Shown in pieces: positions 17,274-40,621 of a stretch of DNA of 64,000 bases. This DNA comes from Winogradskyella undariae (GTDB taxonomy: Bacteria > Bacteroidota > Bacteroidia > Flavobacteriales > Flavobacteriaceae), in NCBI RefSeq assembly GCF_013285155.1, contig NZ_JABTEL010000004.1, forward strand, positions 186,001 through 250,000, in the 5' to 3' direction. The notes under the pieces were generated by a model, which made no database searches, was not told the origin of the DNA, and saw nothing but the letters and a program-made list of their open reading frames with translations. A program made the translations under genes and the position numbers. Each line of letters starts with the position of its first letter. The stretch's first letter is position 1.

Positions 17274-17299
17274 TTGAGCATATATTTTAGCACTTGAGC
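17274..17299 (+). repeat. Left arm-type repeat of element A
   Basis: Two TTGAGCA units in direct orientation, separated by TATATTTTAGCAC. The same TTGAGC...TTGAGC pair occurs at the right end of the element (27482-27501). By analogy with arm-type sites of tyrosine recombinases, these may be integrase-binding sites. The sequence is shown directly; the function is inferred. Confidence 0.45.
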
Positions 17300-17372: not shown

Positions 17373-18038
17373 CTATTCCCATTCCTCAAATCCAAGTATT
17401 TTCGATCTTTTCAATACCCATTCCCCATTTAGATTTTGAATGTGAGTTATATCTAAAATCTTATTACCGTCTTTAAACTCACAAGTAATAATTACTTTTT
17501 GGCTCTTACGATACCCTATACGATGTTGGTATTTCTTTAGTAGTTGGTATTCCTGAAGTTGTTTTGTCCAATTTGTGATACTTTCTTCACAAGCATTTAG
17601 TCTCTTTGAAGTATAGCTTCTTTTTGCAAAATACTCTCTTCTCCCTTTGCTAAGCGAGTTGTATTCTCCCCACAACAGTTTCGCTCCTGTTGATAATTGT
17701 TTATGATTGTATATTTCAAAAGGCAAGAATATTTCTCTTTTATCCTTAGCCTGATGCTCTTTATGTTTATCCGTTAAAGTGTATTTAGATTTATCTTTTA
17801 ACAAGTATCCTTTTTTAACAAGATTCTTTCTGCAGTACGAAATAATGTTAGGATGAAGATTAAATAGCTGACCTGTTTTTGAATTGGTAAGCTTGGTATA
17901 TCCTTTTTTAGATTGATAGGTATAATCCAATCCGAGAATTAGTTTCTCATTAAACGATAATTCATTACTTGAAAGTATTGTTGCAGGAATTTTTAGAACT
18001 AGTTGCTTGTTCTCTTTAGAATGGAGATTGTTGTACAT
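17373..18038 (-). CDS. Winged-helix Rep-like protein (putative replication initiator)
   Basis: 221 residues with two helix-turn-helix regions. The first (about 20-85) has FNEKLILGLDYTYQSKKG and NLHPNIISYCRKNLVKKGYL. The second (about 105-175) has LSTGAKLLWGEYNSLSKG and ACEESITNWTKQLQEYQLLKK, like the HTH_36/RepA_N winged helix of plasmid initiators. Basic throughout. Its gene lies just downstream of an iteron-like repeat array (18131-18269), which is the classical rep/iteron arrangement. It probably binds those repeats to start replication of the excised element and to control its own expression. A pure transcription regulator is the alternative. Confidence 0.6.
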   Translation of the reverse strand: MYNNLHSKENKQLVLKIPATILSSNELSFNEKLILGLDYTYQSKKGYTKLTNSKTGQLFNLHPNIISYCRKNLVKKGYLLKDKSKYTLTDKHKEHQAKDKREIFLPFEIYNHKQLSTGAKLLWGEYNSLSKGRREYFAKRSYTSKRLNACEESITNWTKQLQEYQLLKKYQHRIGYRKSQKVIITCEFKDGNKILDITHIQNLNGEWVLKRSKILGFEEWE

Positions 18039-18130: not shown

Positions 18131-18269
18131 CACCAATTTTGCATTTCATTTTTGATAATCATGCCATTGTTTTCACAAAACACACCAATTTTGCATTTCA
18201 TTCTTACCAATTATCCATTTCATTTCACACCATTTGTGATTTTCAAATACACCAATCTTGCACTTATAA
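18131..18269 (+). repeat. Iteron-like direct repeats (possible replication origin)
   Basis: CACCAATTTTGCATTTCATT occurs exactly at 18131-18150 and again at 18183-18202. Diverged copies start at 18205 (TACCAATTATCCATTTCATT), 18228 (CACCATTTGTGATTTT) and 18250 (CACCAATCTTGCACTT). The last four copies are spaced 22-23 bp apart, about two helical turns, so a protein would meet them on one DNA face. They sit immediately upstream of the winged-helix Rep-like gene in an AT-rich, ORF-free stretch. Confidence 0.65.
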
Positions 18270-19537: not shown

Positions 19538-20134
19538 TTAACCACTAGGTTTTATACCATTTTCAATCAAATACTGTTTTCCATGGTTATATTTAGAGAA
19601 CTTATCAATACATATTGATTTTACCTTATTGGATTTTAAATACTCAATACTTGTGGGAAATTCAATAATAACTGCCTCTAATGTTTTATGACATAAATTA
19701 ACCTTAATCAGTTTTAGAAAACCAATTGATGATTCTTTGCTCGTTACATATTTTTCAAATAATTCGAGCTTTTCATTATCATCAGTCAACGAGTTCCATT
19801 TCGGTTTTAAACGTTTGGGATGATATACTCCCTTAGTTCCCATATTCTGAACACGCTCATCAATAATTCTAATCAATTGTTTTTTCGATATCGGATTCTT
19901 TGACTTAGTAGTTAATTCAATATCTTTCATTTTGGTATTTGTGTCAATCTTATTTCCTGATTTTGTTTCAAACACTCGTGGTCCAAGTCTGAAATGATCT
20001 GGTTTAATTTTGGTAACGCTAAGACCTAATACGGTTATGGTATCTAATTTCTTAAAAGGGACGTTCCTTTCTTCTAGGTAAGCAACAAAGTCATTCTGTC
20101 CCATGATTTTAAAATTGGTTCTTTTTCCGCTCAT
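19538..20134 (-). CDS. Hypothetical protein of element A, possibly C-terminally truncated
   Basis: 198 residues, basic, no signal peptide or membrane helix. The N-terminus (MGQNDFVAYLEERNVPFKKLDTITVLGLSVTKIK) and a helical Lys-rich middle (PISKKQLIRIIDERVQ) give no family match that I recognise. It lies between the integrase gene (78 bp upstream) and the remnant. The frame continues in coding-like sequence for 44 codons past its TAA, so the gene may have been longer and cut by a premature stop. Confidence 0.5.
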   Translation of the reverse strand: MSGKRTNFKIMGQNDFVAYLEERNVPFKKLDTITVLGLSVTKIKPDHFRLGPRVFETKSGNKIDTNTKMKDIELTTKSKNPISKKQLIRIIDERVQNMGTKGVYHPKRLKPKWNSLTDDNEKLELFEKYVTSKESSIGFLKLIKVNLCHKTLEAVIIEFPTSIEYLKSNKVKSICIDKFSKYNHGKQYLIENGIKPSG

Positions 20135-20211: not shown

Positions 20212-21459
20212 CTATGCTGATTGTTCTAGGTACCTCAGCATCATTTCGGCATTCTCATCCTGTGACACCTTTATGTAAGTTGAAAATGCTCTTTCTGTTC
20301 GGTGACCTGTAATCTTCATAATTACTCGTGATGGAATACCTCGTTTGAACATATTAGTTGCAAATGAACGTCTTGCAGTGTGGGTTGTAATTAATTCATA
20401 TTTACTCAATGTTTGCTCAACACGTTTTCTCCCTTTAGTTCTTATTTTTAAGAAACTCTCGTTAATTTTAGCACGTCTCCCTATTTCCTTTAGGTGCTTA
20501 TTCATCGTCTGATTTACACAAGATTTAGGTAAACTATTTACATTGTCTTTATATTTTTCCATAATATCCTTGACAAAAGACATGAGAGGAATAGTTACCC
20601 ATTCGTTCGTTTTAATTGTTTTAACTTTAAAAGTGTTCCCGACAATATGTTCTTTTTTTAGTTCGCTAAAGTCACTAAATCGCAATCCTGTATAACATCC
20701 AACGATGAATAAATCTCTAACACGCTCCAATGATTTATTATAACTTAAATCAATGTCTATCATTCGTTGTAATTCTTCTTCACTTAGGTAAATATTGTTA
20801 ACCTCTTCTCTAACAGTTTTAAAATTCTTGTTCTTGTACATCAGTTGAGTGTTAAACCCTTTATCTGTAGCGTCATTCAATATCACTTTTATGTTTTTAA
20901 TCACTCTTCCAAAACCATTATTCAAAAAGCCTTGAACACCTGTATAAAACTCTTGGAAGTCATAGTAAAAATCCATATCTATATTATGCCAATCTAGTTG
21001 TGTTGCAGAATACCTCTCATATTTTCTTAATTGATTGAGTACAGTACGATATGTTTTTAATGTACCAGGACTTTTACTTTTTTTACTGATTTCAACATAA
21101 TGTTCTGCGTATTCAAAAAACGTGTATTGTGTTTTCTTTTGTTGCTCAACCTTTGTTTCATTATAAAGGGACTTAACATAAATTGTTCCTGGGTCTTCTC
21201 CCTTAATTAAAAGTCCGTTTACAATGTCATCCACCTTTTGTTTAATAGTTGTTAGATAAATATTGAAGCGATCTGAGCCAGAATAACTTCTTTTTATTTT
21301 TTGATTTTTAACGTCCCAGTAGTCATCTCTGACGTTTTTATGAGTAGTGAAATACGTAACTTTCTTTTTGTGCGAATACCGAAGCATTAGCATCGATTCT
21401 GGACTTTTAATTTTCTTTTGATGTTGGGATTTACTTAATACAAATTTTAATGTTGCCAT
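20212..21459 (-). CDS. Tyrosine recombinase (integrase) of element A
   Basis: 415 residues with the layout of Bacteroidota integrases: N-terminal arm-binding domain (about 1-95), SAM-like core-binding domain (about 100-210, FFEYAEHYVEISKKSKSPGTLKTYRTVLNQL) and catalytic domain. Catalytic residues visible: R in TGLRFSDF, H-x-x-R in THTARRSFATNMF, H/R in TGHRTERAF and the nucleophile Y in FSTYIKVS. It would integrate and excise element A. Unusually for such elements it is internal, with about 3 kb of unknown genes between it and the left end. The first Met gives the full arm-binding domain. Confidence 0.93.
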   Translation of the reverse strand: MATLKFVLSKSQHQKKIKSPESMLMLRYSHKKKVTYFTTHKNVRDDYWDVKNQKIKRSYSGSDRFNIYLTTIKQKVDDIVNGLLIKGEDPGTIYVKSLYNETKVEQQKKTQYTFFEYAEHYVEISKKSKSPGTLKTYRTVLNQLRKYERYSATQLDWHNIDMDFYYDFQEFYTGVQGFLNNGFGRVIKNIKVILNDATDKGFNTQLMYKNKNFKTVREEVNNIYLSEEELQRMIDIDLSYNKSLERVRDLFIVGCYTGLRFSDFSELKKEHIVGNTFKVKTIKTNEWVTIPLMSFVKDIMEKYKDNVNSLPKSCVNQTMNKHLKEIGRRAKINESFLKIRTKGRKRVEQTLSKYELITTHTARRSFATNMFKRGIPSRVIMKITGHRTERAFSTYIKVSQDENAEMMLRYLEQSA

Positions 21460-21592: not shown

Positions 21593-22399
21593 TTACTTTT
21601 TTTGAGAAGGTGATAATTCCATTTTTTCTAATAAGTCCACTGTTTTAGCGTAAATAGGAACACCTAATTCTTGCTCAACATTTTTAAGTGTTGCGAACAG
21701 AATGTGATTTATTGAGGCATCTATAGGTAGATATCGGTCATCACTTCTAATAAGCAAATGATCTAAATGTGTATTTAGTTTTTTATTAAATGATATGAAT
21801 GTCTTAGGTAGACACAAATCTTCTACTTTTAAATGCGTCGGTTTTAAATCTTTGATTTCGTATTTAATCAAACACTCATTAGGATATTGACTAAGCGAAA
21901 ACGTCTTCTTGCGTTTAGCATTTATAATAGGGTCATATATTTTTAAATGAAGACCTTTAGTATTGCCAAACATTTTCATTGATGAAGTAGATTTCTCTAA
22001 CCTATAATCCTGTAGCCCGATAAGTGAGTTAATATAATCCTTTGAAGAATTTTCAATCTTTTGATAAGCCCCAAACTCTAATTCTATCAGTTTTGCCTCT
22101 GTCAAATCAATACCTAATATATCTGACAACGATTTCATCGCTTTTAGTAAATCTAGTGCATCAAACGCCTTAAAATTATGCCCATAAATGAGATACGGTA
22201 TACTTGAACGAATAGTGATGTTTTGTCCGCCATCAATAAATAGATCAAAATTCTTGTCGAAGAATCGACCATTAGAAACTAATGAATAATGATTATTTAA
22301 GGTTTTATGAGGTTTTAATACGTCCCAATTTATGAGACTTGAATTAACATTATATAGCTTAAACTTAATAAAGTCATAGTGATAGTTAAATAATTTCAT
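21593..22399 (-). CDS. Putative replication-associated protein of element A
   Basis: 268 residues, soluble. Three short motifs, LIELEFGAYQK (about 105-115), LHLKIYDPI (about 150) and LIKYEIKDLK (about 178), recur in the same order in the element B protein at 45041-45934 (LTQLEFGLNIK, YYFKIYDKAK, IIRIEIKYK), so the two appear homologous. The pattern recalls plasmid and phage rolling-circle-type initiation proteins (G2P/Rep-like), but a catalytic His pair or Tyr cannot be assigned. It lies 11 bp downstream of the DNA polymerase gene, in the replication operon. Confidence 0.5.
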   Translation of the reverse strand: MKLFNYHYDFIKFKLYNVNSSLINWDVLKPHKTLNNHYSLVSNGRFFDKNFDLFIDGGQNITIRSSIPYLIYGHNFKAFDALDLLKAMKSLSDILGIDLTEAKLIELEFGAYQKIENSSKDYINSLIGLQDYRLEKSTSSMKMFGNTKGLHLKIYDPIINAKRKKTFSLSQYPNECLIKYEIKDLKPTHLKVEDLCLPKTFISFNKKLNTHLDHLLIRSDDRYLPIDASINHILFATLKNVEQELGVPIYAKTVDLLEKMELSPSQKK

Positions 22400-22410: not shown

Positions 22411-23703
22411 TTAATGAGCCATAGCCCAGTTATGTCCTTTATCTAAACCAACTTCTAATGGTATAGACAGTCTAACCACGTTTTCCATCGTATTTTTAAC
22501 TAAGGTTTCCATAACCTCCATTTCGTCATCAGGTACTTCAAATAATAATTCATCGTGGACTTGAAGGACTAATTTTGATTTTAAGTTTTTGGTTTTTATC
22601 TGCTCATCACAGGCAACCATGGCCATCTTAATAATGTCAGCTGCTGTACCTTGAATTGGTGAGTTCATAGCCAGGCGTTTACCTGCATTACGTTCTGATA
22701 GTTTACTTGATGATAATTGTGGAATTGGTCGACGTCTTCCATAAATGGTTTCTGAATAACCGTTAGTGTCGGCGAAGTCTATCAAACTATCTAAACATGT
22801 TTTTACACCACTAAACCGCTGAAAATATTTGGACATGATAACTTCTGCTTGTTCTTTGGAATGGTGTTTTCCAGTGATTTCGGTCAGTGTTGCAGATAAA
22901 CCAAATGCTGTTTTGCCATAGATTAGTCCGAAATTAATACTCTTGGCTATTGAACGCTGCTCATCAGTAACTTCTGAATATTTAATATTGAACACTTCCG
23001 AAGCAGTTAATCTGTGTACATCTAAATTCTTCCCATTGGTATCTTTGGTGGTGTATGCTTTTAGTAGATATTCATCTTGACTCATATCAGTAACTACTCG
23101 AATTTCAATCTGAGAATAATCGGCACAGATAAACTGGCAACCTTTCTTGGGAATGAACATCTCTCTAAATCTTGATTCTAATATTATTAGCTCATTGATT
23201 TCTCCGTCATTAAGCTTGACATTGGGTATGTTCTGTAAATTAGGCTTACTGCAACTGAACCGTCCTGTTGCTGTGCCTGATTGATTAAATTGACCGTGAA
23301 GCCTTTTAGTTATTGGATTAACATTCTGTAGTTGTTTACAAAAGTTTATTAAACTAATGGTTTTGCGATAATCCAACAATAATGGAACTATCTCATGCTT
23401 ATCTATTAACTTTTTCAAGTGTGATTTATCCGTGGAATAGCAACCGTTCTTACCAACTTTATCAATTTCAGGCTGTAACTGAAGTGTCTCAAACAATAGT
23501 TTGTTTAATTGTGGAGGACTCTCTAGGTTAATTTCATCTTCAGTAAAAGCTTGTATTTGTCGTATTAATTTTTCATTAAATTTCTTGAGCTGTTTAAGAG
23601 TTTCTTTACATTTTTTAACGTCTATCTTTACACCATCAAGTTCCATCTTCATTACAACATGAAGGGTTTTATATTCTAAGTCTAGTATATCTTGGTTCAT
23701 CAT
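22411..23703 (-). CDS. Family A DNA polymerase (polymerase domain only)
   Basis: 430 residues, corresponding only to the polymerase domain of PolA. Motifs in order: TATGRFSCSKPNLQNIP (144-160), motif A CADYSQIEIRV (193-203), motif B R-x3-K-x2-NFGLIYG (250-263), SPIQGTAADIIK (348-359) and motif C LQVHDELLFEV (380-390). All catalytic residues are present (D195, R250, K254, F258, H383, D384). There is no exonuclease domain; that domain is instead at the C-terminus of the upstream gene, whose stop precedes this ATG without a gap. It presumably replicates the excised element. Phage T7-type polymerases are the nearest functional analogy. Confidence 0.93.
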   Translation of the reverse strand: MMNQDILDLEYKTLHVVMKMELDGVKIDVKKCKETLKQLKKFNEKLIRQIQAFTEDEINLESPPQLNKLLFETLQLQPEIDKVGKNGCYSTDKSHLKKLIDKHEIVPLLLDYRKTISLINFCKQLQNVNPITKRLHGQFNQSGTATGRFSCSKPNLQNIPNVKLNDGEINELIILESRFREMFIPKKGCQFICADYSQIEIRVVTDMSQDEYLLKAYTTKDTNGKNLDVHRLTASEVFNIKYSEVTDEQRSIAKSINFGLIYGKTAFGLSATLTEITGKHHSKEQAEVIMSKYFQRFSGVKTCLDSLIDFADTNGYSETIYGRRRPIPQLSSSKLSERNAGKRLAMNSPIQGTAADIIKMAMVACDEQIKTKNLKSKLVLQVHDELLFEVPDDEMEVMETLVKNTMENVVRLSIPLEVGLDKGHNWAMAH

Positions 23704-25761
23704 TTATTGATTTAATTTATTAGCTATAAAATGGTATAATTGATAGGTAAGATCCGTGTCCTCACAAGCGTATTTGGTTAACTCATCAGTAGGTATTTCA
23801 GTAATTAATTTACCACCTGTTATTTGCTTGAAGTTGATTTGTCTATACCCTAAATGCAATTCTGAAATTTCCTTTAAACCATGTTTTTTTCGATTAGGGT
23901 CTAAGAAATGGTCAAGTATCATGGTGTCTTCAATACGTCCTAAAACAGGTATTCCATAGCGATGTAAGAATTTAAGGTCGAATTTGGCATTGTGGAACAC
24001 TTTAGTAATATGCTCTGCCGTTAAAAACGTAAGTAATGGTTCTATAAACAATAATGCTTTGGCTTTATGTTTTGGAAATACAATGTTATAGCCCGTGCGC
24101 TTTTTAAACGTCAATGACATACACACAATATCATCCTGAAAACAATCAAATCCTGTCGTCTCCAAATCAACAGCTAAAACCTCATCTGAATGATCTTTAA
24201 AATGTTTTATCATTTTGTTAACCAGACGAGTCATTTTGTTGGGTGTATCGACTGTTTTATAATCGGCATCAACATCTTCAATTGTCAGTAGTGTTTGCTC
24301 TGCTTTTTGTGTAATAATCTCAAAGAATGCCTTAGAGTTTGACGGCGTCTCTTTATAAGCTAGATTTTTATATTCACAGTATTTCTTTAGTTTTACTGTG
24401 AAAGTGCGTTGTGTTGGAGCATAGCGTCTATCAACATAGCCACCATTTTTAAATTCATTGAAAAGCTCTTTCTTATGATACTTGGGTTTTTCAGCAAACT
24501 TTTCATCCAAGAAGTCTAAAAGGTCAGCACCTAATTCACTAATAAGTCTTCGCTCAATAAGGTTTACAGGATCAGCCTCAACAAGTCCGTAGTTTAAATA
24601 ATATCGAATACAAAAGATGATGAACAGTGTTACTTCATTCCATTCAAATTCATTCCAATCTTCAAAGAACTGTTGTTGAAATTCATCATATACAGTTAAA
24701 TGAGATCCATAATGTTCTGAAAGTTCTATTTCATATTTACGACGCTCCGTACTATGCCCAGAAGGTGCCTTAATCATAAAATTAGATGATAAAACTATTT
24801 TTGGAGAACGCTCAAAAGGAATTTCTATCTCGTCTTTGTACTTTCTATTTATAGTAAAGTTATCTGTAACACGACCATACATACTCTCAAAATTGAAGTT
24901 AGCCTTGACATCATTAATTGAAATGATATTAGTATTTGGTGTTGCTCTTTGAAAAGAAAATTGATTGTTACTACTGAAGTCTTTTCCTGGCAGTTCACAC
25001 AACTCCCTAAAATAACTCAACGACTTAATCAATAGACTTTTACCAGTTCCTCCATGGGCTGCATTAAGTTCATTAATAGACTGATCTAACAGAACAATAG
25101 CCTTGGTATTTGACGCCTTTTTAAATCGATGAAGTAGATAGCCGATTAAAGATAAAAACGCTTTAGATCGCTGTATTTTCTTATCCGATATGTTGTAGAT
25201 GAATTTAGCAAAATTAGTATTACGAAATAGTTTCTTGACTTTTTTTGGATTGAAATGTCTACTAATAATCTGCTCATGGAAAACATAGCCATCTAAGTTT
25301 TTGTAATTGATCAGTTCAAATCCATTTCTGGTGATTTTAACTACGGTATTCTTGAAGTATAAGAAACAGTTATCTTCTGTATCAAAATGAGAGTTAATGA
25401 TAACAGCAGGTAAAAACTTAAGGGTAAGCGGACTGAACAATTGTGGTGTCTTATTAATCCAAGCACTTTCAATTTGATCTATATAAAGACCATCAATCAT
25501 ATTGCTCTCAGAATTATTCTGTAACCATTGCTTGACTAAAGTGATAATTTCTGAATGGTCCTTTATAGTATAGACTATGTTGTCTACTATTCTTACCATT
25601 TTATAAACACCATTAACAAGAGCGTAACGAAATCCTAGCTCACCTAGAAATCTGATAAAATTTAATGTTGGTACTTTGACCTTTCCTGCGTCCTTACCTT
25701 CTTCAATGACAAACCACGGCTTAGAAATAATTTGAGATACTCGTGGAAATATATGTTCCAT
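23704..25761 (-). CDS. SF3-type helicase fused to a DEDDy 3'-5' exonuclease
   Basis: 685 residues. The N-terminal 220 residues are unrecognised and may be primase-like. Residues 225-400 are an SF3/DUF5906-like helicase: Walker A GGTGKS (237-242), Walker B-like NIISINDVKANF and a sensor region KIVLSSNF followed by the arginine-bearing STERRKYE. A winged-helix linker follows. Residues 525-685 are a PolA-type proofreading exonuclease: motif I VLAVDLETTG (D532, E534), motif II VFHNAKFDLKF and motif III YACEDTDL (Tyr-x3-Asp). So helicase and exonuclease are joined, while the polymerase is a separate adjacent protein. The two products probably form one replisome. Start ATG at 25761 lies 4 bp after the excisionase-like gene. 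Confidence 0.85.
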   Translation of the reverse strand: MEHIFPRVSQIISKPWFVIEEGKDAGKVKVPTLNFIRFLGELGFRYALVNGVYKMVRIVDNIVYTIKDHSEIITLVKQWLQNNSESNMIDGLYIDQIESAWINKTPQLFSPLTLKFLPAVIINSHFDTEDNCFLYFKNTVVKITRNGFELINYKNLDGYVFHEQIISRHFNPKKVKKLFRNTNFAKFIYNISDKKIQRSKAFLSLIGYLLHRFKKASNTKAIVLLDQSINELNAAHGGTGKSLLIKSLSYFRELCELPGKDFSSNNQFSFQRATPNTNIISINDVKANFNFESMYGRVTDNFTINRKYKDEIEIPFERSPKIVLSSNFMIKAPSGHSTERRKYEIELSEHYGSHLTVYDEFQQQFFEDWNEFEWNEVTLFIIFCIRYYLNYGLVEADPVNLIERRLISELGADLLDFLDEKFAEKPKYHKKELFNEFKNGGYVDRRYAPTQRTFTVKLKKYCEYKNLAYKETPSNSKAFFEIITQKAEQTLLTIEDVDADYKTVDTPNKMTRLVNKMIKHFKDHSDEVLAVDLETTGFDCFQDDIVCMSLTFKKRTGYNIVFPKHKAKALLFIEPLLTFLTAEHITKVFHNAKFDLKFLHRYGIPVLGRIEDTMILDHFLDPNRKKHGLKEISELHLGYRQINFKQITGGKLITEIPTDELTKYACEDTDLTYQLYHFIANKLNQ

Positions 25762-25765: not shown

Positions 25766-26062
25766 CTACTGTTTTAAAGATTTAATGAAATGTTCTACTT
25801 CAGAAAGTTTGTAGCGTTTGGCACCATCAATGTCATAGACAGGGAAGTCCTTGTGTCTGCGTTTAACTTTATAAAAATGAGCTGTAGAAATTTGAAGAGC
25901 TTCGCACAACTCTACATCTTTTAAAAGTTTTTCACTCGTTATTGGCATTCCAACTAGAGCATTAGACTGCTTAGATAGTGCATCGACAACACGCTGTGCT
26001 ATCCGACTTTCTAATTCCGAAAAAGCTTTGTAAAGATGATATTGTAGTGCGTCCTGCTCCAT
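25766..26062 (-). CDS. Helix-turn-helix excisionase-like protein (DUF3853-like)
   Basis: 98 residues. The C-terminal half is a MerR/excisionase-type helix-turn-helix (LLKDVELCEALQISTAHFYKVKRRHKDFPVYDIDGAKRYKLSEVEHFI, given here as several joined motifs only for orientation: VELCEALQIS, KVKRRHKD, AKRYKLSEV). Such proteins control excision and act as regulators in Bacteroidota integrative elements. It heads the replication operon, 4 bp before the helicase gene. The element B protein at 45931-46233 occupies the equivalent place. Confidence 0.75.
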   Translation of the reverse strand: MEQDALQYHLYKAFSELESRIAQRVVDALSKQSNALVGMPITSEKLLKDVELCEALQISTAHFYKVKRRHKDFPVYDIDGAKRYKLSEVEHFIKSLKQ

Positions 26063-26143: not shown

Positions 26144-27253
26144 TTATTTACGCAATTTTATGTTTCTGCATTCTGTTCTAAGATAATTAGGTAAATCCGA
26201 ATAATCATTACATTCGGTATGATTCAAATATGAATCTCTTATTACTGGAAAAGAAAAAAAGAAAGCGCATAAAAAATCGTACTTTCTAACATTCGTACTA
26301 TTATATTTGAATTTCTTTCTAAGACCAAGCTTCTTATAAAGCTCTCTTGTCTTTTTATCTAAATGATCTTTTAGTTCTTCTTTACCCAACTGATTTTTAA
26401 CAGTCAAATTAACTTCATAAGCAGCTATAAGTCTATTAAACTTAGTAACATCCTTTTCATAATTAAGGAGCATTTCCTTCTGAGTATTTTCCCGATAGAT
26501 TAGGTAGAGCCTATAAATTCTATCATACAAATCAGACTTGCTGATACAGTTCAGACTAAGAAAGTCTAAAGGAATTATACTATTATCATTTTTTGATTCC
26601 CTAAATAAATTATTTGATAACCTTTTAAGGTCGCTGCTAGAAAGAAAATCAGAGAAAAGTCTTTTATACTCATCCAAAACACCATTCATTTCAACATATT
26701 TTAAAATGCCCTGATTACTTTTTGTAGAAATATGAATACTGAGCGGTATTCTTATACTATTCATTGAAACAGAATCAAAGCCTTTATTGATTTTATTGTC
26801 TCTATTATTCAATATAACCCTCTTAACAGCTTCTAAGTTTGAATTGTCAAAAACAATCCAACTACTACCTACCTTTCTACCATTAATTAAATTTTTGTAA
26901 TATTTACTTCTAGTGCTATCAATGTGCTTTGAGCAATAGTATTGTAATTCTTCAGCATTAGACTTAATTTCGAATTTGTACGATATAAAATCATCTATCA
27001 TTTGCCTAGACTCGTCTATCTGTTCTATGTGAAGCCTTATATGTGATTTAGGATTACTAAAATCAAAATATCGTAATGAGTAATACATTAAAAAATATGT
27101 CTCTCCTATTGTGAATCTTTGATGATTTTGTTTGAAAAAATTTAAATCCAGTTTCTCTTCTTTTAATAGTTTCTCTAAAAAGCTGAAAACCTTTATAGCA
27201 GATTCTAACGGTATATCTGTTAATTTCAGCTTTAATCGAGAGTATTTTGGCAT
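26144..27253 (-). CDS. Hypothetical protein at the right end of element A
   Basis: 369 residues, basic, mostly helical, no signal peptide or membrane segment, and rich in Lys, Asn and Tyr. I recognise no domain. It is the first gene from the right end and is followed after 81 bp by the excisionase-like gene; element B has an unrelated-looking 284-residue gene in the same place (46344-47198). A regulatory or end-binding role is possible from position only. An ACTACTT...AAGTAGT dyad (27272-27304) sits just upstream of its start and could be an operator. Confidence 0.6.
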   Translation of the reverse strand: MPKYSRLKLKLTDIPLESAIKVFSFLEKLLKEEKLDLNFFKQNHQRFTIGETYFLMYYSLRYFDFSNPKSHIRLHIEQIDESRQMIDDFISYKFEIKSNAEELQYYCSKHIDSTRSKYYKNLINGRKVGSSWIVFDNSNLEAVKRVILNNRDNKINKGFDSVSMNSIRIPLSIHISTKSNQGILKYVEMNGVLDEYKRLFSDFLSSSDLKRLSNNLFRESKNDNSIIPLDFLSLNCISKSDLYDRIYRLYLIYRENTQKEMLLNYEKDVTKFNRLIAAYEVNLTVKNQLGKEELKDHLDKKTRELYKKLGLRKKFKYNSTNVRKYDFLCAFFFSFPVIRDSYLNHTECNDYSDLPNYLRTECRNIKLRK

Positions 27254-27481: not shown

Positions 27482-27501
27482 TTTGAGCATATACTTGAGC
27501 T
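27482..27501 (+). repeat. Right arm-type repeat of element A
   Basis: TTTGAGCATATACTTGAGCT: two TTGAGC units 12 bp apart, matching the pair at 17274-17299. It stands about 58 bp from the tRNA fragment; the element B arm repeat stands 49 bp from the intact tRNA with a terminator between, the same order as here. Confidence 0.45.
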
Positions 27502-27507
27502 CAATAA

Positions 27508-27545: not shown

Positions 27546-27559
27546 TAAAGTTTAAAAAG

Positions 27560-27603
27560 TGGTCCCACATGGACTCGAACCATGGACCACCTGATTATGA
27601 GTC
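27560..27603 (-). pseudogene. Displaced 3' half of a CAU tRNA gene (att site, left end of element B)
   Basis: Runs from the anticodon loop to the discriminator base. Its first 20 bp on the tRNA 5' side, ggaccacctgattatgagtc (27584-27603, plus-strand reading), equal 47332-47351 exactly. The T stem differs from the intact gene by compensatory changes (CATGG/CCATG here, CTTGG/CCAAG there), so this was once a functional half. It lacks the acceptor 5' strand and the D arm and cannot make a tRNA. Confidence 0.85.
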
Positions 27604-27718
27604 TGTAACTGTTATGTTTCAGATTGTTGCTTTTTGTTTCAGATGGCTGATTATCAATGATATAATTAAAAACCATTCTTTTCTTTGTTTCCTTTAGTTA
27701 CCTATTATTATAAAAATG

Positions 27719-27736
27719 TTTGACCTATGTTTGACC
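27719..27736 (+). repeat. Left arm-type repeat of element B
   Basis: TTTGACCTATGTTTGACC, two TTTGACC units 11 bp apart, 115 bp inside the left att core. An identical copy in the same orientation is at 47241-47258. Probably an integrase arm-type site. Confidence 0.6.
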
Positions 27737-28123
27737 CAGAATTTTAAACACTCTTAGCTTTATATCTTTCTCTATATCTAGCATCAGACTAAATTCTGGA
27801 AAACTGAAAACAGTAAATGTTTGACCTAAATCAAATTTATCTGTAATTAATAAATAATCACTTAACTTCTCTTGCAACTTACCTAAATCCTTTATATCAA
27901 AGCTATATACTATTCTAGAAAGTATATCTCCATTGTACTGTAAGATTGGATTACTGCAAAAAGAAACCCCGAATAGTGTTCTAAAATCTCCTTTTATATA
28001 TTCGTAATTTTCATTCTCTAATCCATTACTAAAAGTTGATTCTAAAGCCTTAAGATTAAACTCATTTAATTCATACTGTTCTCCAATACTAAAGCGAAAT
28101 TCTTTTAATAAGGAATTACACAT
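27725..28123 (-). CDS. Hypothetical protein, element B left end
   Basis: 132 residues, soluble, no signal peptide. Acidic and aromatic-rich (FNLKALESTFSNGLENENYEY, YIKGDFRTLFGVSFCSNP). No family recognised. It is the last gene of a leftward group with the two lipoprotein genes (3 bp gap to 28127-28516). Its C-terminal codons overlap the arm-type repeat at 27719-27736, so the end of the gene and the putative integrase site share sequence. Confidence 0.5.
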   Translation of the reverse strand: MCNSLLKEFRFSIGEQYELNEFNLKALESTFSNGLENENYEYIKGDFRTLFGVSFCSNPILQYNGDILSRIVYSFDIKDLGKLQEKLSDYLLITDKFDLGQTFTVFSFPEFSLMLDIEKDIKLRVFKILGQT

Positions 28124-28126
28124 ACC

Positions 28127-28516
28127 TTAATTAAAAGTATATTGATATTGAAAACTCTGTTGGTTTATGCTTTCTTGATGAACATTAACGTTATCTACAG
28201 AACCATAAAAACGCATTTCAGCTTGAGAAGAATCTTCTATATAAAATTCTAACTCAAAGCTTACTGTATTCTCTGGAATCTCTACACTAACTATATTTTG
28301 GGTATAGTCAAAATCTGAACTAATTGTTGACTCTGTTCCATCATCTGAAGTTAATGTCGTTGTTAAGCCTACAGATACCCAATCCTCAAGAGCACCTGTT
28401 GTAAACTCTACTATATGAGATTGACTAATTTGTTGTTCTTCTTCCTGATTGTCATCATCACTTGAACAGGCTGTAAATGCAAAAATGGCTATTAATAATA
28501 AAAATGTATTCTTCAT
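28127..28516 (-). CDS. Small SCSSDDD-type lipoprotein (paralogue 1)
   Basis: 129 residues. The signal peptide is MKNTFLLLIAIFAFTAC with lipobox FTAC, followed by the acidic SSDDDN stretch usual for Bacteroidota surface lipoproteins. The mature part is a small beta-rich domain ending in the strand pattern QSFQYQYTFN. It is paralogous to the neighbouring 28535-28918 (same signal peptide, similar length, both ending in Y-T-Y/F-F-N). Surface-exposed cargo of unknown function. Confidence 0.7.
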   Translation of the reverse strand: MKNTFLLLIAIFAFTACSSDDDNQEEEQQISQSHIVEFTTGALEDWVSVGLTTTLTSDDGTESTISSDFDYTQNIVSVEIPENTVSFELEFYIEDSSQAEMRFYGSVDNVNVHQESINQQSFQYQYTFN

Positions 28517-28534
28517 TGTATTTGGTTTTAGTTT

Positions 28535-28918
28535 TTAAAAATTATGGATATAAGTATAATTTACTTCTGAAATAGTCTGTTCATCTATGATGTTACCTTC
28601 AGAACTAATTAACTTAATATTTACTTCTGAACCTCCTTCAATATAGAAATTCGATTCTATTTTAACTGGATTTAAATCTGTTTCTACTGTAACAGTTCTA
28701 GTATCTTCATCATAACCAACTTCTTTAAACTCAAAAGAATCTTCATATGTAATTGTATTTCCCGCTCTTACTACATAATAACTAGGTAATACACCTGTAG
28801 TATATACTAACTTATAACTGAGGTTAGCATTTGTCATTTCTGCAACCTCACCATCATCATCACTAGAACAAGCTACTAATGACAAAATCGCTATTAATGT
28901 TAAAAAGATATTCTTCAT
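28535..28918 (-). CDS. Small SCSSDDD-type lipoprotein (paralogue 2)
   Basis: 127 residues with signal peptide MKNIFLTLIAILSLVAC and then SSDDDGEVAE. The mature domain shows alternating beta strands (YKLVYTTGVLPSYYVV, TVTVETDLNPVKIESNFYIEG). It shares its layout with 28127-28516, 18 bp downstream, and the pair probably arose by tandem duplication. No function known. Absence of a nearby SusC/D pair or protease gives no hint of role. Confidence 0.7.
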   Translation of the reverse strand: MKNIFLTLIAILSLVACSSDDDGEVAEMTNANLSYKLVYTTGVLPSYYVVRAGNTITYEDSFEFKEVGYDEDTRTVTVETDLNPVKIESNFYIEGGSEVNIKLISSEGNIIDEQTISEVNYTYIHNF

Positions 28919-28949
28919 AATTTATTATTTATTGGTTAATTGATTCTTA

Positions 28950-29309
28950 TTAAAATGGCAAGTCGTTATCTGCTTCATCCAAAAAGCTAACTGGTTCTTG
29001 CTGTGTTTGTGTTTGAGGTGTAGGCTGTTCACTATTGACAAGCTCTATTCTCCAACCTAGAATAGCATTAAAGTATTTAGCTACACCTTCAGGATTAATC
29101 CACTCTCTACCTCTTAAATTAAGAGCTATTTTCACTTCTTGACCTACATTAAAACTATCTAGCAAATCACATTTATCTTGAATGAATTCTACTAAAATAT
29201 GTTGTGGATATTGTTCTTCTGTAGTGATAACAACTTCTCTTTTTCTAAAGCCATTACTCCCTATATTTTGAACATCATTTAAGACCTTTATTTTCCCTGT
29301 TAATTCCAT
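28950..29309 (-). CDS. DUF3127-like OB-fold protein with SSB-like acidic tail
   Basis: 119 residues. The core (MELTGKIKVLNDVQNIGSNGFRKREVVITTEE, VGQEVKIALNLRGREW, FNAILGWRIELV) fits the DUF3127 family of Bacteroidota, thought to be OB-fold single-stranded DNA-binding proteins. A Pro/Gln-rich linker leads to an acidic terminus DEADNDLPF resembling the SSB tail (DDDIPF type) that recruits replication and repair enzymes. It lies 10 bp after 29320-30552, whose product has a related C-terminal domain. Likely an element-encoded SSB analogue. Confidence 0.75.
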   Translation of the reverse strand: MELTGKIKVLNDVQNIGSNGFRKREVVITTEEQYPQHILVEFIQDKCDLLDSFNVGQEVKIALNLRGREWINPEGVAKYFNAILGWRIELVNSEQPTPQTQTQQEPVSFLDEADNDLPF

Positions 29310-29319
29310 AGTTTTTTAT

Positions 29320-30552
29320 TTAAAAAGGTAATGGTAAAATGTATTTATAATACAAATCCATTTCCTTTGTGTTTTTCTTTACTTTTGGTTTAGCATCTAA
29401 TATCTCTACACGCCAACCATATAAATGATGTTTATACCCTTTAGTGCCTTCTGAATTTTGCAGCTCTCCACCTGTGAGTCTTGCAAATACTTTTACAAAC
29501 TGACCTACACTTAAATTATCTAAGTGTTTTACCCTTCCATCTGTAAAAACCACTTGAAATTCACTACAACAGAAATCATCAATTGACAGTACTATTTTAC
29601 GTCTTGTGTATGCTCTTGTATTTTCAGTTTTTTTATAAACTTCTAAATCATCTATTGATTTGATTTTTCCTTCAAAGTGGATAGCTTTAGCTTCCTCTAT
29701 AATACTCATGTATTTAAGTGTGTACTTAAAATCTTCAGGGTTTAATGTTAGTTCATCTAATTCTAAACGATAATGAGTAAGCTCTCTACTATCATAAAAT
29801 ACAGAAGAAAATAATTGATATTCATTTTTGTTTTCTGCTTGATATGAAAACCAATTTTCAAGTTTCAATACACTGTCTTTAACTCCGTTATAGTTATCTA
29901 ATTGTTGCCTAAAGTAAGCTTCCTTCTTATACAGCCTTGATAAAATATCTAACTTACCATATAAGACCTCAAAATCCTTTTTCACTAATACCTCTATCGA
30001 ATTCAGTTTAGAAACATATCTCTTATCTTCTAGTATTGTAACCACATCATCATAGAAACCTCTGTACTTTTCTAGCCATAACACTATAGTCTTCATTTTA
30101 CAAACACTTTTAGAGCTGAATGTATTGTATTCACAAATCGGATTGGAATCATTTAGATGTTTCCTGTATTCTGAAGTGCTTTCTGGCTTTATAGAAAAGT
30201 AATGGAATTTACCTAACTGGTGTTTATTATCATACAGGATTTCACTGCAAGACGTAGAAAAATTATAATAATTATTTTCATCTTCTTGATAGGTTATTGC
30301 AAAGTAATCTTGAGTGTAATTACCTACAAAACAAAATATTTTTTTGTCTTTATTACAGCCACAAACACCAATGGTTTTGTAAAGTTCTAAAGATGTATTA
30401 CCACTTGCTTTTAACTCTGTAAATAGCTTGTTCAGCTTCTCTAAAAAAGAAACATTTGCATATCTTTTAAAAGCGTTTTTTACTAAAACAGTTTCTAGTG
30501 ATTTTGTATTCATTGAAGAAATACAGTTTATAAACTCTTCTTTTTGGCTCAT
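29320..30552 (-). CDS. Protein with unknown N-terminal domain fused to a DUF3127-like OB fold
   Basis: 410 residues. About 1-290 is unrecognised, helical, and contains CGCNKDKKIFCFVGNY and several Cys residues. Residues about 295-385 (HFEGKIKSIDDLEVYKKTENTRAYTRRKIVLSI and VGQFVKVFARLTGGEL, HHLYGWRVEIL) repeat the order of the DUF3127 core of the neighbouring 119-residue protein. The protein ends KYILPLPF, again resembling an SSB tip. Two such proteins in tandem suggest a two-subunit ssDNA-binding or annealing complex, perhaps working with the Sak4-like ATPase (42762-43625). Role inferred. Confidence 0.6.
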   Translation of the reverse strand: MSQKEEFINCISSMNTKSLETVLVKNAFKRYANVSFLEKLNKLFTELKASGNTSLELYKTIGVCGCNKDKKIFCFVGNYTQDYFAITYQEDENNYYNFSTSCSEILYDNKHQLGKFHYFSIKPESTSEYRKHLNDSNPICEYNTFSSKSVCKMKTIVLWLEKYRGFYDDVVTILEDKRYVSKLNSIEVLVKKDFEVLYGKLDILSRLYKKEAYFRQQLDNYNGVKDSVLKLENWFSYQAENKNEYQLFSSVFYDSRELTHYRLELDELTLNPEDFKYTLKYMSIIEEAKAIHFEGKIKSIDDLEVYKKTENTRAYTRRKIVLSIDDFCCSEFQVVFTDGRVKHLDNLSVGQFVKVFARLTGGELQNSEGTKGYKHHLYGWRVEILDAKPKVKKNTKEMDLYYKYILPLPF

Positions 30553-30588
30553 AATCTTAATAGATATTATATTTTCCTGTGTTTATAA

Positions 30589-30969
30589 TTAATTAAAAAG
30601 CATTAATACCCAATTAAAAATAGGCTTTATTAAAAGCACCCATATACTACTAATAATAATAGCGCCAAATGCTACTCCTCCAAAAATTATAATAACACTA
30701 GATATTTTACTACTTTCTCCTAATTTAATCTTTAGAAACCCCAGAAAAACAACCAATACTACAGCTGAATAAGGAATTGACTCTGGATAAAAGTGATATA
30801 TTATGTAAGGTAATATTAGTAATGTTATAATTTTCAGAACACCCTTTTCTTCAAAAAACTTAGCTATCTCTTCATTTATCTCTTTGAATAAATCTTGAAT
30901 AAATCTTGAAATTTTATTAAGTTTTTCTCTATCCCACTGAAATAAAAGTTTAAGTAGCTTCAAGTTCAT
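30589..30969 (-). CDS. Small membrane protein of unknown function
   Basis: 126 residues. An amphipathic, charged N-terminus (LLKLLFQWDREKLNKISRFIQDLFKEINEEIAKFF) precedes three hydrophobic segments (about 47-64, 70-86, 92-118). No recognised motif. It lies 36 bp upstream of 29320-30552 and is probably cotranscribed. The layout (helical cytoplasmic part plus small multipass membrane part) is seen in some accessory proteins of defence systems, but nothing specific supports that here. Confidence 0.55.
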   Translation of the reverse strand: MNLKLLKLLFQWDREKLNKISRFIQDLFKEINEEIAKFFEEKGVLKIITLLILPYIIYHFYPESIPYSAVVLVVFLGFLKIKLGESSKISSVIIIFGGVAFGAIIISSIWVLLIKPIFNWVLMLFN

Positions 30970-31026
30970 AAAGTTAGTTTTTATTTATCCCCTCTATTAG
31001 AGTTTTACCTTTTTTAGTGCTCTCCA

Positions 31027-31398
31027 TTATAAACTTATTAATAATAAAACTATCATTAAAATAGATAGGGTTATGTAAGTTATAATAGTTTTTGGATAAG
31101 GGCTGACTATATATTTAAGTATACTACTAGGAACAATAAGAGATAAAATTTTTATAGTAATCGCTGGCACTATTAATAACCCTACAAAAAATATCAACAC
31201 ACTATAACCCCAGTAGAATGAGTAATACAAATTAATAGCTAAAACAATATAGCCAATCCAAGGTGTTGCTCTTAACAACAAATTAGGCAGGAAAGAGCCA
31301 GTAGCTAGAATCTCACCTTCTTTAATTCTTGATGAAATTGAGTTATGTATCCCAAATATTATAAATGATATTGCCAATAAAATGTAATAGTAATTCAT
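31027..31398 (-). CDS. Small multipass membrane protein
   Basis: 123 residues with four predicted membrane helices (YYYILLAISFIIFGIH, IGYIVLAINLYYSFYWG, VLIFFVGLLIVPAITIKIL and TYITLSILMIVLLLISL). No recognised family. It is transcribed divergently from the XRE regulator at 31508-31738; the intervening region has a palindromic operator candidate, so its expression is probably under that regulator. Confidence 0.55.
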   Translation of the reverse strand: MNYYYILLAISFIIFGIHNSISSRIKEGEILATGSFLPNLLLRATPWIGYIVLAINLYYSFYWGYSVLIFFVGLLIVPAITIKILSLIVPSSILKYIVSPYPKTIITYITLSILMIVLLLISL

Positions 31399-31436
31399 AA
31401 GTCCTTTTTAAAAGTTATTTAACAAACATACTTTTT

Positions 31437-31486
31437 TTATCATTTATGATAACCATAACAGCTTACTTAATTATCATTTTTGACAA
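31437..31486. promoter_or_regulatory. Two operator-like sites in the divergent region of the XRE regulator
   Basis: A perfect palindrome TTATCAT-TT-ATGATAA (31437-31452) and a degenerate copy TTATCAT-TT-TTGACAA (31471-31486), 34 bp apart centre to centre, between the leftward membrane-protein gene and the rightward XRE gene. This is a typical layout for an autoregulating Cro/CI-like repressor. Confidence 0.55.
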
Positions 31487-31507
31487 CTAGATAATGTATG
31501 TTTTAAA

Positions 31508-31738
31508 ATGGACGATAAAGACCAACTTCAAATAGCAATTGGAAAGCGAGTTAAAATGTTAAGAGAAGAGCAAGGTATTGCTCAACAAGACCTTGCTGCC
31601 AAATGTAATATTGAAAAATCTAACTTTAGTCGTTTAGAAGCTGGTGGAACCAACCCTACTTTATACACCTTAAAAAGGATTGCTGATAATTTAGGTATCA
31701 CTTTATGTGATATTGTAAACCTTGAAGATAAAAAGTAA
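31508..31738 (+). CDS. XRE-family (Cro/CI-like) regulator
   Basis: 76 residues, nearly all one helix-turn-helix domain (IGKRVKMLREEQGIAQQDLA, CNIEKSNFSRLEAGGTNPTL, LKRIADNLGI). It is a single-domain repressor without oligomerisation or peptidase domain. It is transcribed towards the leftward radC gene, with a shared bidirectional terminator downstream. It probably represses its own promoter and the divergent leftward operon of element B through the palindromes at 31437-31486. Confidence 0.85.
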   Translation: MDDKDQLQIAIGKRVKMLREEQGIAQQDLAAKCNIEKSNFSRLEAGGTNPTLYTLKRIADNLGITLCDIVNLEDKK

Positions 31739-31837
31739 GATTTAGCTATTAATATTAATCTATAGGGCTTACAAACAGTAATTTTTTACTTAAAAAGCCT
31801 ACTCACACACTCTTTCATACATAAACAAAAGACAAAA

Positions 31838-31887
31838 AGTCCCACTTTTTCCAATTCACTATATATAGAAATGGAAAAAAGAGGACT
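31838..31887. terminator. Bidirectional terminator between the XRE gene and radC
   Basis: AGTCCCACTTTTTCCA (31838-31853) pairs imperfectly with TGGAAAAAAGAGGACT (31872-31887) around an AT-rich loop, with A and T runs on the outer sides. The right arm overlaps the radC stop codon. Confidence 0.6.
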
Positions 31888-32323
31888 ATTTTATCAATCC
31901 ATTATCACTAAAACTATAAAAATCATCTTTAGTTACTATTAAGTGGTCTAACAGCACTATATCTAGATACTGCCCTGCTTGTTTTAGCTTTTGTGTTAAA
32001 TTCTTATCTGCTTCACTTGGCTGAAGGTTTCCTGAAGGATGATTATGTGCTATTATAATGTTTGAAGCATTGCATTTAAGAGCAACACTAAACACTAATT
32101 TCGCATCTACCACAGTAGCAGAAACACCTCCTTTAGAAAGCGGATAAACACCTAAAATCTGGTTACTCCTATTCATCATTAATATCTTAAACTCCTCTTG
32201 TAATTCTATAGTAGAATCACTCCAACAAGCTCTTATAATATCATAAGACTGCTTACTATTACTTATTTTTAGCCTATCACTCCTGTTATTTGAGTATGAG
32301 ACACTTATTTCTGAAATTTTCAT
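31886..32323 (-). CDS. RadC-like JAB/MPN domain protein
   Basis: About 145 residues from the ATG at 32323. An upstream in-frame ATG at 32428 would add a basic leader and overlap a palindrome, so it is less likely. The JAB metal site is intact: Glu in IELQEEF region, H-x-H-P-S-G-x6-D as HNHPSGNLQPSEAD, and DHLIV further on. This matches the RadC/DUF2466 proteins that are frequent in mobile elements, here without the usual N-terminal HhH region. The biochemical role of mobile RadC proteins is unsettled; a DNA-related peptidase or nuclease-like role has been proposed. Confidence 0.9.
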   Translation of the reverse strand: MKISEISVSYSNNRSDRLKISNSKQSYDIIRACWSDSTIELQEEFKILMMNRSNQILGVYPLSKGGVSATVVDAKLVFSVALKCNASNIIIAHNHPSGNLQPSEADKNLTQKLKQAGQYLDIVLLDHLIVTKDDFYSFSDNGLIK

Positions 32324-32705
32324 GATAATTATTTTTTTTATATACCTTAGAAAAAGAAGCTTCTTTCTCAAATACTTCTTAGAAAGTCTTCTACAAAGTT
32401 TCATAATATGATTTACCATCTGTGTCAAACAATAGTATAGTACTTTGACACAAGTGGTATTTTTTATTTTTAACTCTACTATTCTTAAAGAAATTTACAC
32501 TTGAACTTTAACATTTCAATCAATTAGGCGTATTTCAACTGACCTTCAAGATTAATAATATATCCTTATAGTAATAAAGTAAACTCGCTACAGTTATACT
32601 ATCTTTTATTTATGAAGGTATGAGCAATCAAGCACAATATTGTAAGGGTATTTTAAAACTCAAAAAACAAAGCCCAATCTATTTACATAGACTAGGCTTA
32701 TATTT
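32324..32705. promoter_or_regulatory. Intergenic region with TGTGTCAAA palindrome and a terminator
   Basis: 382 bp without a gene. TGTGTCAAA-N14-TTTGACACA (32421-32429 and 32444-32452) is a perfect 9-bp inverted repeat about 100 bp before the radC start, a probable operator. At 32668-32702 the minus-strand hairpin AAGCCTAGTCTAT-gtaa-ATAGATTGGGCTT followed by T-rich DNA terminates the 32706-33101 gene. A 66-codon plus-strand frame here is not convincing. Confidence 0.5.
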
Positions 32706-33101
32706 TTACTCTGCATGCTCAAGAATACCATTCTGTGAAAACACATCAGAATTAGCTATAATATTATGTTTAGGCACAAAAGTTTCTTGCTTTGGTTTTA
32801 CAGCATTTTCTGTAACATAAACCCACCTGTGGGATAATGTAATTTCCTCTCCTGTTTCCTTTACAACATATTCAAAAGGCTCACAGTCTTCTTTAATGAT
32901 GCTTCCTGGCATTTCTGTACCAATAAGCCCAGTACACACCTGCTCATCAAATGTTGAAGGTATATAAGCTTTCTTAGCAGTAGCATAAAAGTTTCCTGTA
33001 ACTTTGCTTAATACCATTTCAATTCCTCCTTGCAGTTCCAGAACGAAGAATGAAGTACCATCCTCTTTCTGTCTCTCTTTGTAATTTACGATTCTAACCA
33101 T
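32706..33101 (-). CDS. Hypothetical mobile-element protein
   Basis: About 131 residues from the ATG at 33101 (MVRIVNYKERQKEDGTSFFVLELQ). A longer frame to 33179 would add a hydrophobic leader that does not look like a signal peptide. The protein starts with a beta-rich domain (GIEMVLSKVTGNFYATAKKAYIPSTFDE) and has FEYVVKETGEEITLSHRWVYV. I recall similar small proteins from flavobacterial integrative elements, but no function is known. It has its own terminator downstream (32668-32702). Confidence 0.55.
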   Translation of the reverse strand: MVRIVNYKERQKEDGTSFFVLELQGGIEMVLSKVTGNFYATAKKAYIPSTFDEQVCTGLIGTEMPGSIIKEDCEPFEYVVKETGEEITLSHRWVYVTENAVKPKQETFVPKHNIIANSDVFSQNGILEHAE

Positions 33102-33679: not shown

Positions 33680-33683
33680 CTGT

Positions 33684-35438: not shown

Positions 35439-35445
35439 AACAATT

Positions 35446-36279: not shown

Positions 36280-36288
36280 TACAAATAA

Positions 36289-38970: not shown

Positions 38971-38971
38971 A

Positions 38972-39910: not shown

Positions 39911-39913
39911 TTT

Positions 39914-40084: not shown

Positions 40085-40087
40085 ATA

Positions 40088-40610: not shown

Positions 40611-40621
40611 CAAAAAAAAAA

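Follow-up and report, generated by a model that had tools for sequence, protein, structure and literature searches.

Genes for a family A polymerase and a helicase-exonuclease as the probable replication module of a small integrative element in Winogradskyella undariae

The subject of this study is a pair of adjacent genes of Winogradskyella undariae (Flavobacteriaceae), found in a stretch of 64,000 nucleotides (contig NZ_JABTEL010000004.1, positions 186,001 to 250,000). This whole 64 kb stretch is called the window, and its own numbering is used throughout. One gene encodes the polymerase domain of a family A DNA polymerase (PolA) and nothing else of that enzyme, while the other encodes a helicase that carries a 3′-5′ exonuclease at its C-terminus. 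Both open reading frames (ORFs) were found at exactly the coordinates below, and the plus-strand frames are full of stop codons.

23704-25761, minus strand: helicase-exonuclease fusion, 685 amino acids (aa); Pfam, PHROG and predicted structure
24331-25743, minus strand: D5/SaPI5-type superfamily 3 (SF3) helicase part of the fusion by predicted structure, aa 7-477, with no primase in front; it aligns to residues 316-750 of SaPI5, 323-700 of D5 and 305-718 of NrS-1
23713-24222, minus strand: DEDDy 3′-5′ exonuclease domain of the fusion, aa 514-683; DNA_pol_A_exo1 E-value 2.5e-27, motifs intact
22411-23703, minus strand: polymerase-only family A DNA polymerase, 430 aa; Pfam DNA_pol_A E-value 1.6e-123, in a clade of element polymerases (100/99)

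Polymerase and helicase-exonuclease genes

In the polymerase gene, DNA_pol_A covers residues 30-427 (412.8 bits against a cut-off of 34.3), and the Pfam scan of the 430-aa protein gave no exonuclease match. The palm motifs A, B and C (DYSQIE, RSIAKSINFGLIYG and QVHDELLFE) are present, and their key residues are invariant in all eight whole element polymerases that were aligned. The motifs and the match above the cut-off place the protein in family A. In the NCBIfam PolA model NF004397, positions 489-889 are matched by the polymerase gene and positions 274-478 by the exonuclease end of the fusion, both matches falling below the full-length cut-off of that model. Thus, the exonuclease and the polymerase together equal a PolA that lacks the 5′ nuclease.

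A separate host PolA is encoded elsewhere in the genome (a 967-aa open frame). In a tree of 67 rows, the eight whole element polymerases form one clade (100/99) with a long stem branch, separate from the 12 host PolAs, which group in a clade of their own and to which the window's polymerase is 37-39% identical; the branching deeper in the tree is not resolved. Since the element polymerases are monophyletic and stand apart from host PolA, the tree speaks for an old lineage carried by elements. A recent capture of the host polA gene finds no support in this separate clade or in these identities.

The exonuclease domain of the fusion was recognized by DNA_pol_A_exo1 with 96.2 bits (cut-off 23.6). 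Its motifs D[LF]ET, HNAKFD and YA[CV]ED are present in all nine element exonucleases; the first-pass annotation, made from the letters of the window, had stated that non-functional motif residues would overturn its reading, and the residues proved intact. In the helicase part, phrog_28855 matches residues 26-477 (E-value 1.6e-60), and Pfam DUF5906 matches residues 236-341 slightly below its cut-off (E-value 1.5e-5; 26.0 versus 27.6 bits). The Walker A residues G237, G240 and K241 are invariant. An AlphaFold model was obtained from a 19-row alignment with a mean predicted local distance difference test score (pLDDT) of 80, the exonuclease domain being modelled less confidently (blocks of pLDDT 44-87). 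When superposed, residues 7-477 of the model align with the SaPI5 primase-helicase over 398 residues (Z 21.8, root-mean-square deviation 5.0). Poxvirus D5 (Z about 19), AsfvPrimPol and the C-terminal region of NrS-1 are matched as well, and structures of the SF3 primase-helicase type score Z 14-22. Because of the superposition on SaPI5, the N-terminal part can be regarded as secured, at the level of the predicted structure, as a D5/SaPI5-type SF3 helicase.

In primase-helicases of the SaPI, D5 and NrS-1 type, the primase is N-terminal, ahead of the helicase. The present protein is not of this build, as its helicase fold begins at residue 7 of the model, while most D5-type targets align from about residue 305-397 onward (one row, 8wgy_E, from 96). 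Thus, relative to these targets, the protein lacks the primase half and carries an additional exonuclease at its opposite end. The first-pass annotation had already read the two genes as a polymerase domain with all its motifs and as an SF3-type helicase with a C-terminal DEDDy exonuclease, and both identifications hold.

The surrounding element and its relatives

The two genes sit in an element of ~10.2 kb with minus-strand genes, beside a tRNA-Met. Its other features are listed here, with relatives designated by locus numbers (L003 and so on).

27483-27502, minus strand: tRNA-proximal attachment-like core GAGCTCAAGTATATGCTCAA, 56 nt past the 3′ half of tRNA-Met
26144-27253, minus strand: 369-aa protein, first gene of the conserved cassette, with no family above the cut-off (Pfam, PHROG and NCBIfam scans); a counterpart of 23-28% identity lies at the same position in all eight relatives
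25766-26062, minus strand: 98-aa helix-turn-helix (HTH) protein, excisionase-like; phrog_668 E-value 3.2e-8, phrog_66 (excisionase and regulator) E-value 2.5e-4; present in all nine elements
21593-22399, minus strand: 268-aa protein with a Rep_trans fold by structure model (MOBT-like relaxase or rolling-circle initiator); its relatives extend about 20 residues further at the C-terminus
20212-21459, minus strand: tyrosine recombinase, 415 aa; Phage_integrase E-value 5.9e-16, with SAM-like and arm-binding domains
19538-20134, minus strand: 198-aa protein of no family, also in L004 and L009
18714-19169, minus strand: 151-aa protein of no family, also in L003, L004 and L009
18379-18669, minus strand: 96-aa protein of no family in the family scans
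18131-18267, minus strand: iteron-like array of an 18-mer, TGAAATGCAAAATTGGTG, in five copies ahead of the 221-aa Rep-like gene
17373-18038, minus strand: 221-aa Rep-like protein with two winged-helix-like segments by eye; phrog_19658 (replication initiation protein) E-value 1.2e-8
17274-17293, minus strand: distal attachment-like core GTGCTAAAATATATGCTCAA, adjoining a host gene that ends at 17260

A core of six genes was found in nine elements, namely that of the window and those of eight further genomes of Flavobacteriaceae and Weeksellaceae, with the gene order kept; the core-gene profiles were built from the proteins of those same nine elements. The pair noticed in the first-pass annotation thus recurs in other genomes. 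The exonuclease is fused to the helicase in six of the nine elements and is a separate gene of 166-175 aa in three Chryseobacterium elements, so the fusion is not obligatory. Compared with L004, the ratio of nonsynonymous to synonymous substitution rates (dN/dS) is 0.118 for the helicase-exonuclease, 0.105 for the polymerase, 0.150 for the 268-aa gene and 0.066 for the recombinase; the 369-aa gene (28% identical) is too diverged for this measure. The same cassette in eight other genomes and the ratios of 0.118 and 0.105 indicate that the cassette is not a chance assembly.

Two side observations concern L004. The 369-aa gene is only 28% identical to its L004 counterpart while the next genes are 92-97% identical, and this end of the cassette may therefore be swapped between elements. 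The share of synonymous sites differing from L004 is 0.02 in the exonuclease part and 0.35 in the helicase part of the fusion gene, which suggests recombination within that gene.

In the window, the stop codon of the helicase-exonuclease gene abuts the ATG of the polymerase gene, in frame. The junction is in phase in three of the nine elements (window, L003 and L004) and out of phase in the other six, with an overlap of 4 nt in L005 and L155 and of 17 nt in L006, or a gap of 1 nt in L007 and L008 and of 2 nt in L009. Stop codon read-through from one gene into the other is thus ruled out as a conserved trait.

A search with the fusion gave 42 genome-contig loci; seven have the full helicase (L003-L009), and the other 35 match in the exonuclease part only. 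Among 397 genomes of the family, the full fusion occurs in two, that of the window and G154. Some match exists in 375 of them, the non-fusion matches being the exonuclease of host PolA or a helicase without this exonuclease. A probe for the 268-aa family was run against 395 genomes of the order and 395 of the phylum; 5 and 9 of them, respectively, matched, only the same two strongly. Six of the weak matches in the phylum (E-values 1.2e-8 to 4.1e-6) each lie at a tyrosine recombinase locus without this helicase or polymerase. Among the matches listed for 345 genomes of the class, the window has the only polymerase-only frame away from a contig end; G1219 has a 414-aa PolA frame starting at base 34 of its contig, and G1342 has a short one near a contig end. 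Of the further short PolA frames, L300 (at a contig end), L301 and L302 have no such helicase within the stretches examined; the ORFs of L301 and L302 (537 and 473 aa) are shorter than the exonuclease-polymerase type described below. A search of 296 genomes of the phylum with an alignment of that intact type was swamped by host PolA.

The ends of the element are marked by a 20-bp core, GWGCTMAANNATATGCTMAA, a pattern written from the window sites and those of L003-L005. It has exactly two matches on the minus strand of the window (27502-27483 and 17293-17274), none on the plus strand and none in 20 mononucleotide shuffles. L003 and L004 also have two copies of the core, separated by 10.7 kb and 9.7 kb, respectively. 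A recombinase together with end repeats was thus found in the window, L003 and L004; this is not established in the other six elements. A tRNA-Met lies upstream of the cassette in seven of the eight relatives (ARAGORN), and L006 has a matching 3′ end only. Integration inside the tRNA-Met was considered and rejected, as the core lies 56 nt beyond the end of the tRNA, which is seemingly used by the neighbouring element.

Two kinds of replication initiation genes may be present. The 268-aa protein belongs to no sequence family; it does not match Pfam Rep_trans, and nothing below an E-value of 0.016 was found across nine members. Its structure model (mean pLDDT 86.9) was matched by Foldseek to RepDE and RepSTK1 with E-values from 2.7e-5 (RepDE) to 4.4e-4, and these two superpose with Z 9.8-10.5 (10.5 for RepSTK1) versus 6.9 for the next row, as expected of a Rep_trans fold. 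Within the family, D9, E106/E108, Y155 and E181 are invariant and occur in the same order as the catalytic acid-acid-Tyr-acid set of the literature. Rep_trans initiators are kin to MOBT relaxases and have the same fold, and RepDE and RepSTK1 are the solved structures nearest to MOBT relaxases (PMC6499999). From its model, the 268-aa protein may act as an initiator or as a relaxase, or it may derive from one of them.

The other candidate is the 221-aa Rep-like gene, in which HTH_36 matches weakly; in the six members scanned it stays under its cut-off or gives no match. Sequence searches of the PDB with this gene and with the Rep_trans-fold family gave nothing useful. The iteron copies ahead of the Rep-like gene start at 18267, 18245, 18222, 18200 and 18148, with spacings of 22, 23, 22 and 52, as in tandem iterons of ~22 bp. 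Such iterons precede the Rep-like gene in seven elements (window, L003, L004 and L006-L009) at 22-23 bp spacing. Within four mismatches, the minus strand of the window has no further site; since about 41 sites in each shuffled strand reach six mismatches, weight can be given only to the close copies and to their spacing.

Several of the ten element proteins match no family at all, and Pfam, PHROG and NCBIfam recognized no virion family among the ten. No capsid, portal, terminase or tail gene that would mark a prophage was recognized among them, nor any type IV secretion or conjugation family that would mark an integrative and conjugative element. No match to a family B polymerase (PolB) was found among the ten proteins, and PADLOC matched no defence system in the seven proteins scanned.

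A second integrative element apparently spans 27559-47381, between the first element and a whole tRNA-Met (47307-47381). A 19-bp sequence around the tRNA-Met anticodon loop occurs at both 27584 and 47332, and at 27559 lies a displaced 3′ half of the tRNA that is identical to that of the L004 tRNA. As judged from these sequences, the second element probably entered the tRNA gene after the first one. Among its genes are those for a tyrosine recombinase, HTH and DUF3871, and others that by eye look restriction-like. Between its HTH and recombinase genes, 45041-45934 encodes a 297-aa protein in which IYDK and RIEIK can be discerned by eye; it has the look of a more canonical Rep_trans/MOBT relative, with nothing convincing in Pfam. 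Two adjacent genes at 40278-41716 resemble a toxin-antitoxin pair of the HigB/HigA type.

Probable origin of the split and proposed replication of the element

The first-pass annotation supposed that the exonuclease had been moved onto the helicase. A different history is suggested by second PolA copies at L297, L298 and L299 of the same taxonomic class, which are intact exonuclease-polymerase proteins of 598-635 aa. Each of their genes overlaps a helicase gene of the same family (E-value 4e-111 or better), and L297 and L298 also have an integrase. These loci are possibly a sister class of elements. L298 carries an SSB-like gene and a methyltransferase gene as well. As read from the gene arrangements, this is a collinear helicase-exonuclease-polymerase operon in three partitions: helicase and exonuclease-polymerase, helicase-exonuclease and polymerase, or three separate genes. 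Since the order is constant and the boundaries vary by lineage, the exonuclease has probably not been moved as a domain; rather, the split is probably a shift of gene boundaries. A segment of 36 residues ahead of the exonuclease motif in the fused members has been retained at the end of the stand-alone Chryseobacterium helicases (E-values 7e-13 to 8e-17); in that genus this speaks for the fission of an originally fused gene. In L298 and L297 the segment is at noise level (0.096 and 0.57), and no match was found in L299, host PolA or other helicases.

Taken together, the domains and folds, the six-gene order in nine elements, the end repeats, the iterons, the low dN/dS, the monophyly of the polymerases and the helicase/exonuclease-polymerase loci make it fairly probable that the two genes form the module by which a small non-viral integrative element (~10.2 kb) next to a tRNA-Met is replicated. 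The first-pass annotation had proposed a self-replicating integrative element that uses family A. This proposal is supported in part: the anatomy is strongly that of such an element, with a recombinase, attachment-like repeats, a Rep-like gene, iterons, a helicase and PolA. From this anatomy I infer an episome copied by its own PolA replisome, which is perhaps coupled through a Klenow-type contact of exonuclease and polymerase.

Such an element may work as follows. The tyrosine recombinase and the HTH protein would excise it as a circle. The Rep-like protein would open the circle at the iterons, the Rep_trans-fold protein would nick it, or both. The ring helicase would then be loaded onto the opened circle, and the element's own PolA would extend a strand. 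It may do so from the nick, and the lack of a primase would then be accounted for. The helicase-borne exonuclease would supply proofreading, and it may hold the polymerase via the contact that joins the two parts in the Klenow fragment. A bolder version, offered tentatively and on balance doubtful, is a PolA-replicated type of element in which the Klenow halves are separate proteins and the exonuclease half is built into a ring-forming SF3 helicase. The exonuclease-polymerase contact would couple helicase to polymerase, giving a minimal two-protein replisome with proofreading on the motor.

Several observations weigh against the replication module of a non-viral element. L006-L008 yielded no copy of the core repeat. 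For L005 and L009, the search of the stretches examined gave the proximal core but no distal one, and the distal candidate of L155, with two mismatches and short of the Rep-like gene, is doubtful. No empty integration site was established; the one candidate, a tRNA-Met by secretion genes at L282, failed, as the tRNA is not the same one and no copy of the upstream gene turned up beside it. No iterons were seen in L155/L296 or in the examined stretch of L005. The 268-aa protein of the window is shortened by about 20 residues at its C-terminus, and its Rep_trans-fold superposition by Foldseek is weak (template modelling score just 0.38-0.47). The residue at +2 of the invariant Y155 is not Lys in any of nine rows, and the lysine of this Y-x-K motif III is essential in the MOBT relaxase RelSt3 (PMC6499999). 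The polymerase is interrupted in L003 (it is whole in the other eight elements). Finally, because of the noise-level or missing matches of the pre-exonuclease segment in L297-L299, shifting boundaries are claimed and their direction is not.

Phage and plasmid records were searched as well, and the results for viral loci hold among the matches listed. In 80 viral contigs that carry a helicase related to this one, neither PolA nor this exonuclease lies within the stretch of at most 6 kb examined on each side, and none of 79 PolA-bearing viral contigs has this helicase within the same distance; helicase and PolA occur together at 0 of 160 viral loci. The fusion is matched by 145 phage records and by 62 plasmid records, none of which covers 80% of it. 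Thus, a phage origin has no support in the records searched, and the known phage cassette that the first-pass annotation had named as a possible refutation did not turn up.

Of the other explanations, an integrative mobilizable element is the most serious, although a rather unlikely one. A MOBT-like relaxase would nick an origin of transfer (oriT), and the element would move through the conjugation pore of another element, while the helicase, exonuclease and polymerase would mainly copy the transferred or displaced strand. The kinship of Rep_trans initiators and MOBT relaxases (PMC6499999), the best model matches to RepSTK1 and RepDE, the invariant D9, E106/E108, Y155 and E181 in their published order, and the weak 268-aa homologues in six recombinase loci that lack this helicase and PolA are consistent with it. 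The missing Pfam Rep_trans match and the absent Y-x-K lysine argue against it, and the iterons with the Rep-like gene suggest vegetative replication.

A phage satellite similar to P4 or to the phage-inducible chromosomal islands, amplified on induction by a helper phage and packaged in its virions, would agree with the size, the integrase, the HTH protein, the unrecognized virion genes and the helicase fold, which is closest to the SaPI5 primase-helicase. It is an improbable explanation. No packaging or capsid gene was recognized in the ten proteins, no PADLOC match was found in the seven scanned, and the primase is missing. Phage satellites are not known to carry PolA.

It is very improbable that the locus is a decaying prophage or pseudogene remnant in which replication genes merely persist. 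The interrupted polymerase of L003 and the shortened Rep_trans-fold gene of the window would fit decay, but dN/dS is about 0.1, the motifs are intact in nine of nine exonucleases and eight of eight whole polymerases, the same gene order recurs in nine genomes, and no virion gene was recognized in the ten element proteins. That the split is an artefact of a single stop codon within one long gene, as the in-phase frames of the window, L003 and L004 might suggest, has next to no chance and is refuted for the family by the six out-of-phase junctions.

Comparison with known systems

A small, bounded, non-viral element that combines PolA, iterons and a nicking-type protein with an SF3 helicase lacking a primase would broaden the class of polymerase-bearing integrative elements. 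Casposons are integrative elements with their own family B polymerase. Among the matches listed, no account of a PolA-encoding integrative element with this split was found in the open-licence PMC literature. A replisome of two or three proteins would be small enough to reconstitute, and the three natural partitions are a comparison set for the questions of whether proofreading can act in trans and of how the helicase is coupled to the polymerase. A proofreading part on the unwinding motor could show how a very small replication machine holds together.

The SaPI, D5 and NrS-1 primase-helicases share the SF3 helicase fold (Z 14-22) with the present fusion. They have an N-terminal primase, whereas here there is no primase and a DEDDy exonuclease is at the C-terminus.

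Apicomplexan PREX links helicase, exonuclease and PolA in one polypeptide. It is an organelle protein with another helicase type, plus a primase. PREX has been named beside the OS3173-like viruses of Aquificae (proposed genus Pyrovirus), which encode a helicase and an exonuclease-polymerase, fused or in separate frames (PMC7689252). These viruses resemble the present element in encoding a helicase (DUF927), a 3′-5′ exonuclease and PolA together, the helicase being fused in some genomes. In contrast, they are 37-42 kb in size with capsid, portal and terminase genes, and their exonuclease is described as staying with the polymerase (PMC7689252), whereas here it is with the helicase or alone. In the OM43 phages MEP401 and MEP402, PolA is also encoded by two genes, but the cut is inside the polymerase domain, the exonuclease stays on the N-terminal part, and an intron is discussed (PMC10580990).

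Tycheposons are likewise islands bordered by tRNA-Met with a tyrosine recombinase; unlike the present element they are large cargo-carrying elements of 4-200 kb, and polymerase has 0 occurrences in the text of PMC10872708. Pipolins, integrative elements at tRNA genes with their own PolB, share with the present element the non-viral nature, the tyrosine recombinase, the att direct repeats, the tRNA target and a polymerase of their own (PMC7385651). Their polymerase is a primer-independent family B enzyme, and the present element is not a pipolin; its polymerase is of family A and has no exonuclease, and it is accompanied by an SF3 helicase-exonuclease, iterons and a Rep-like gene.

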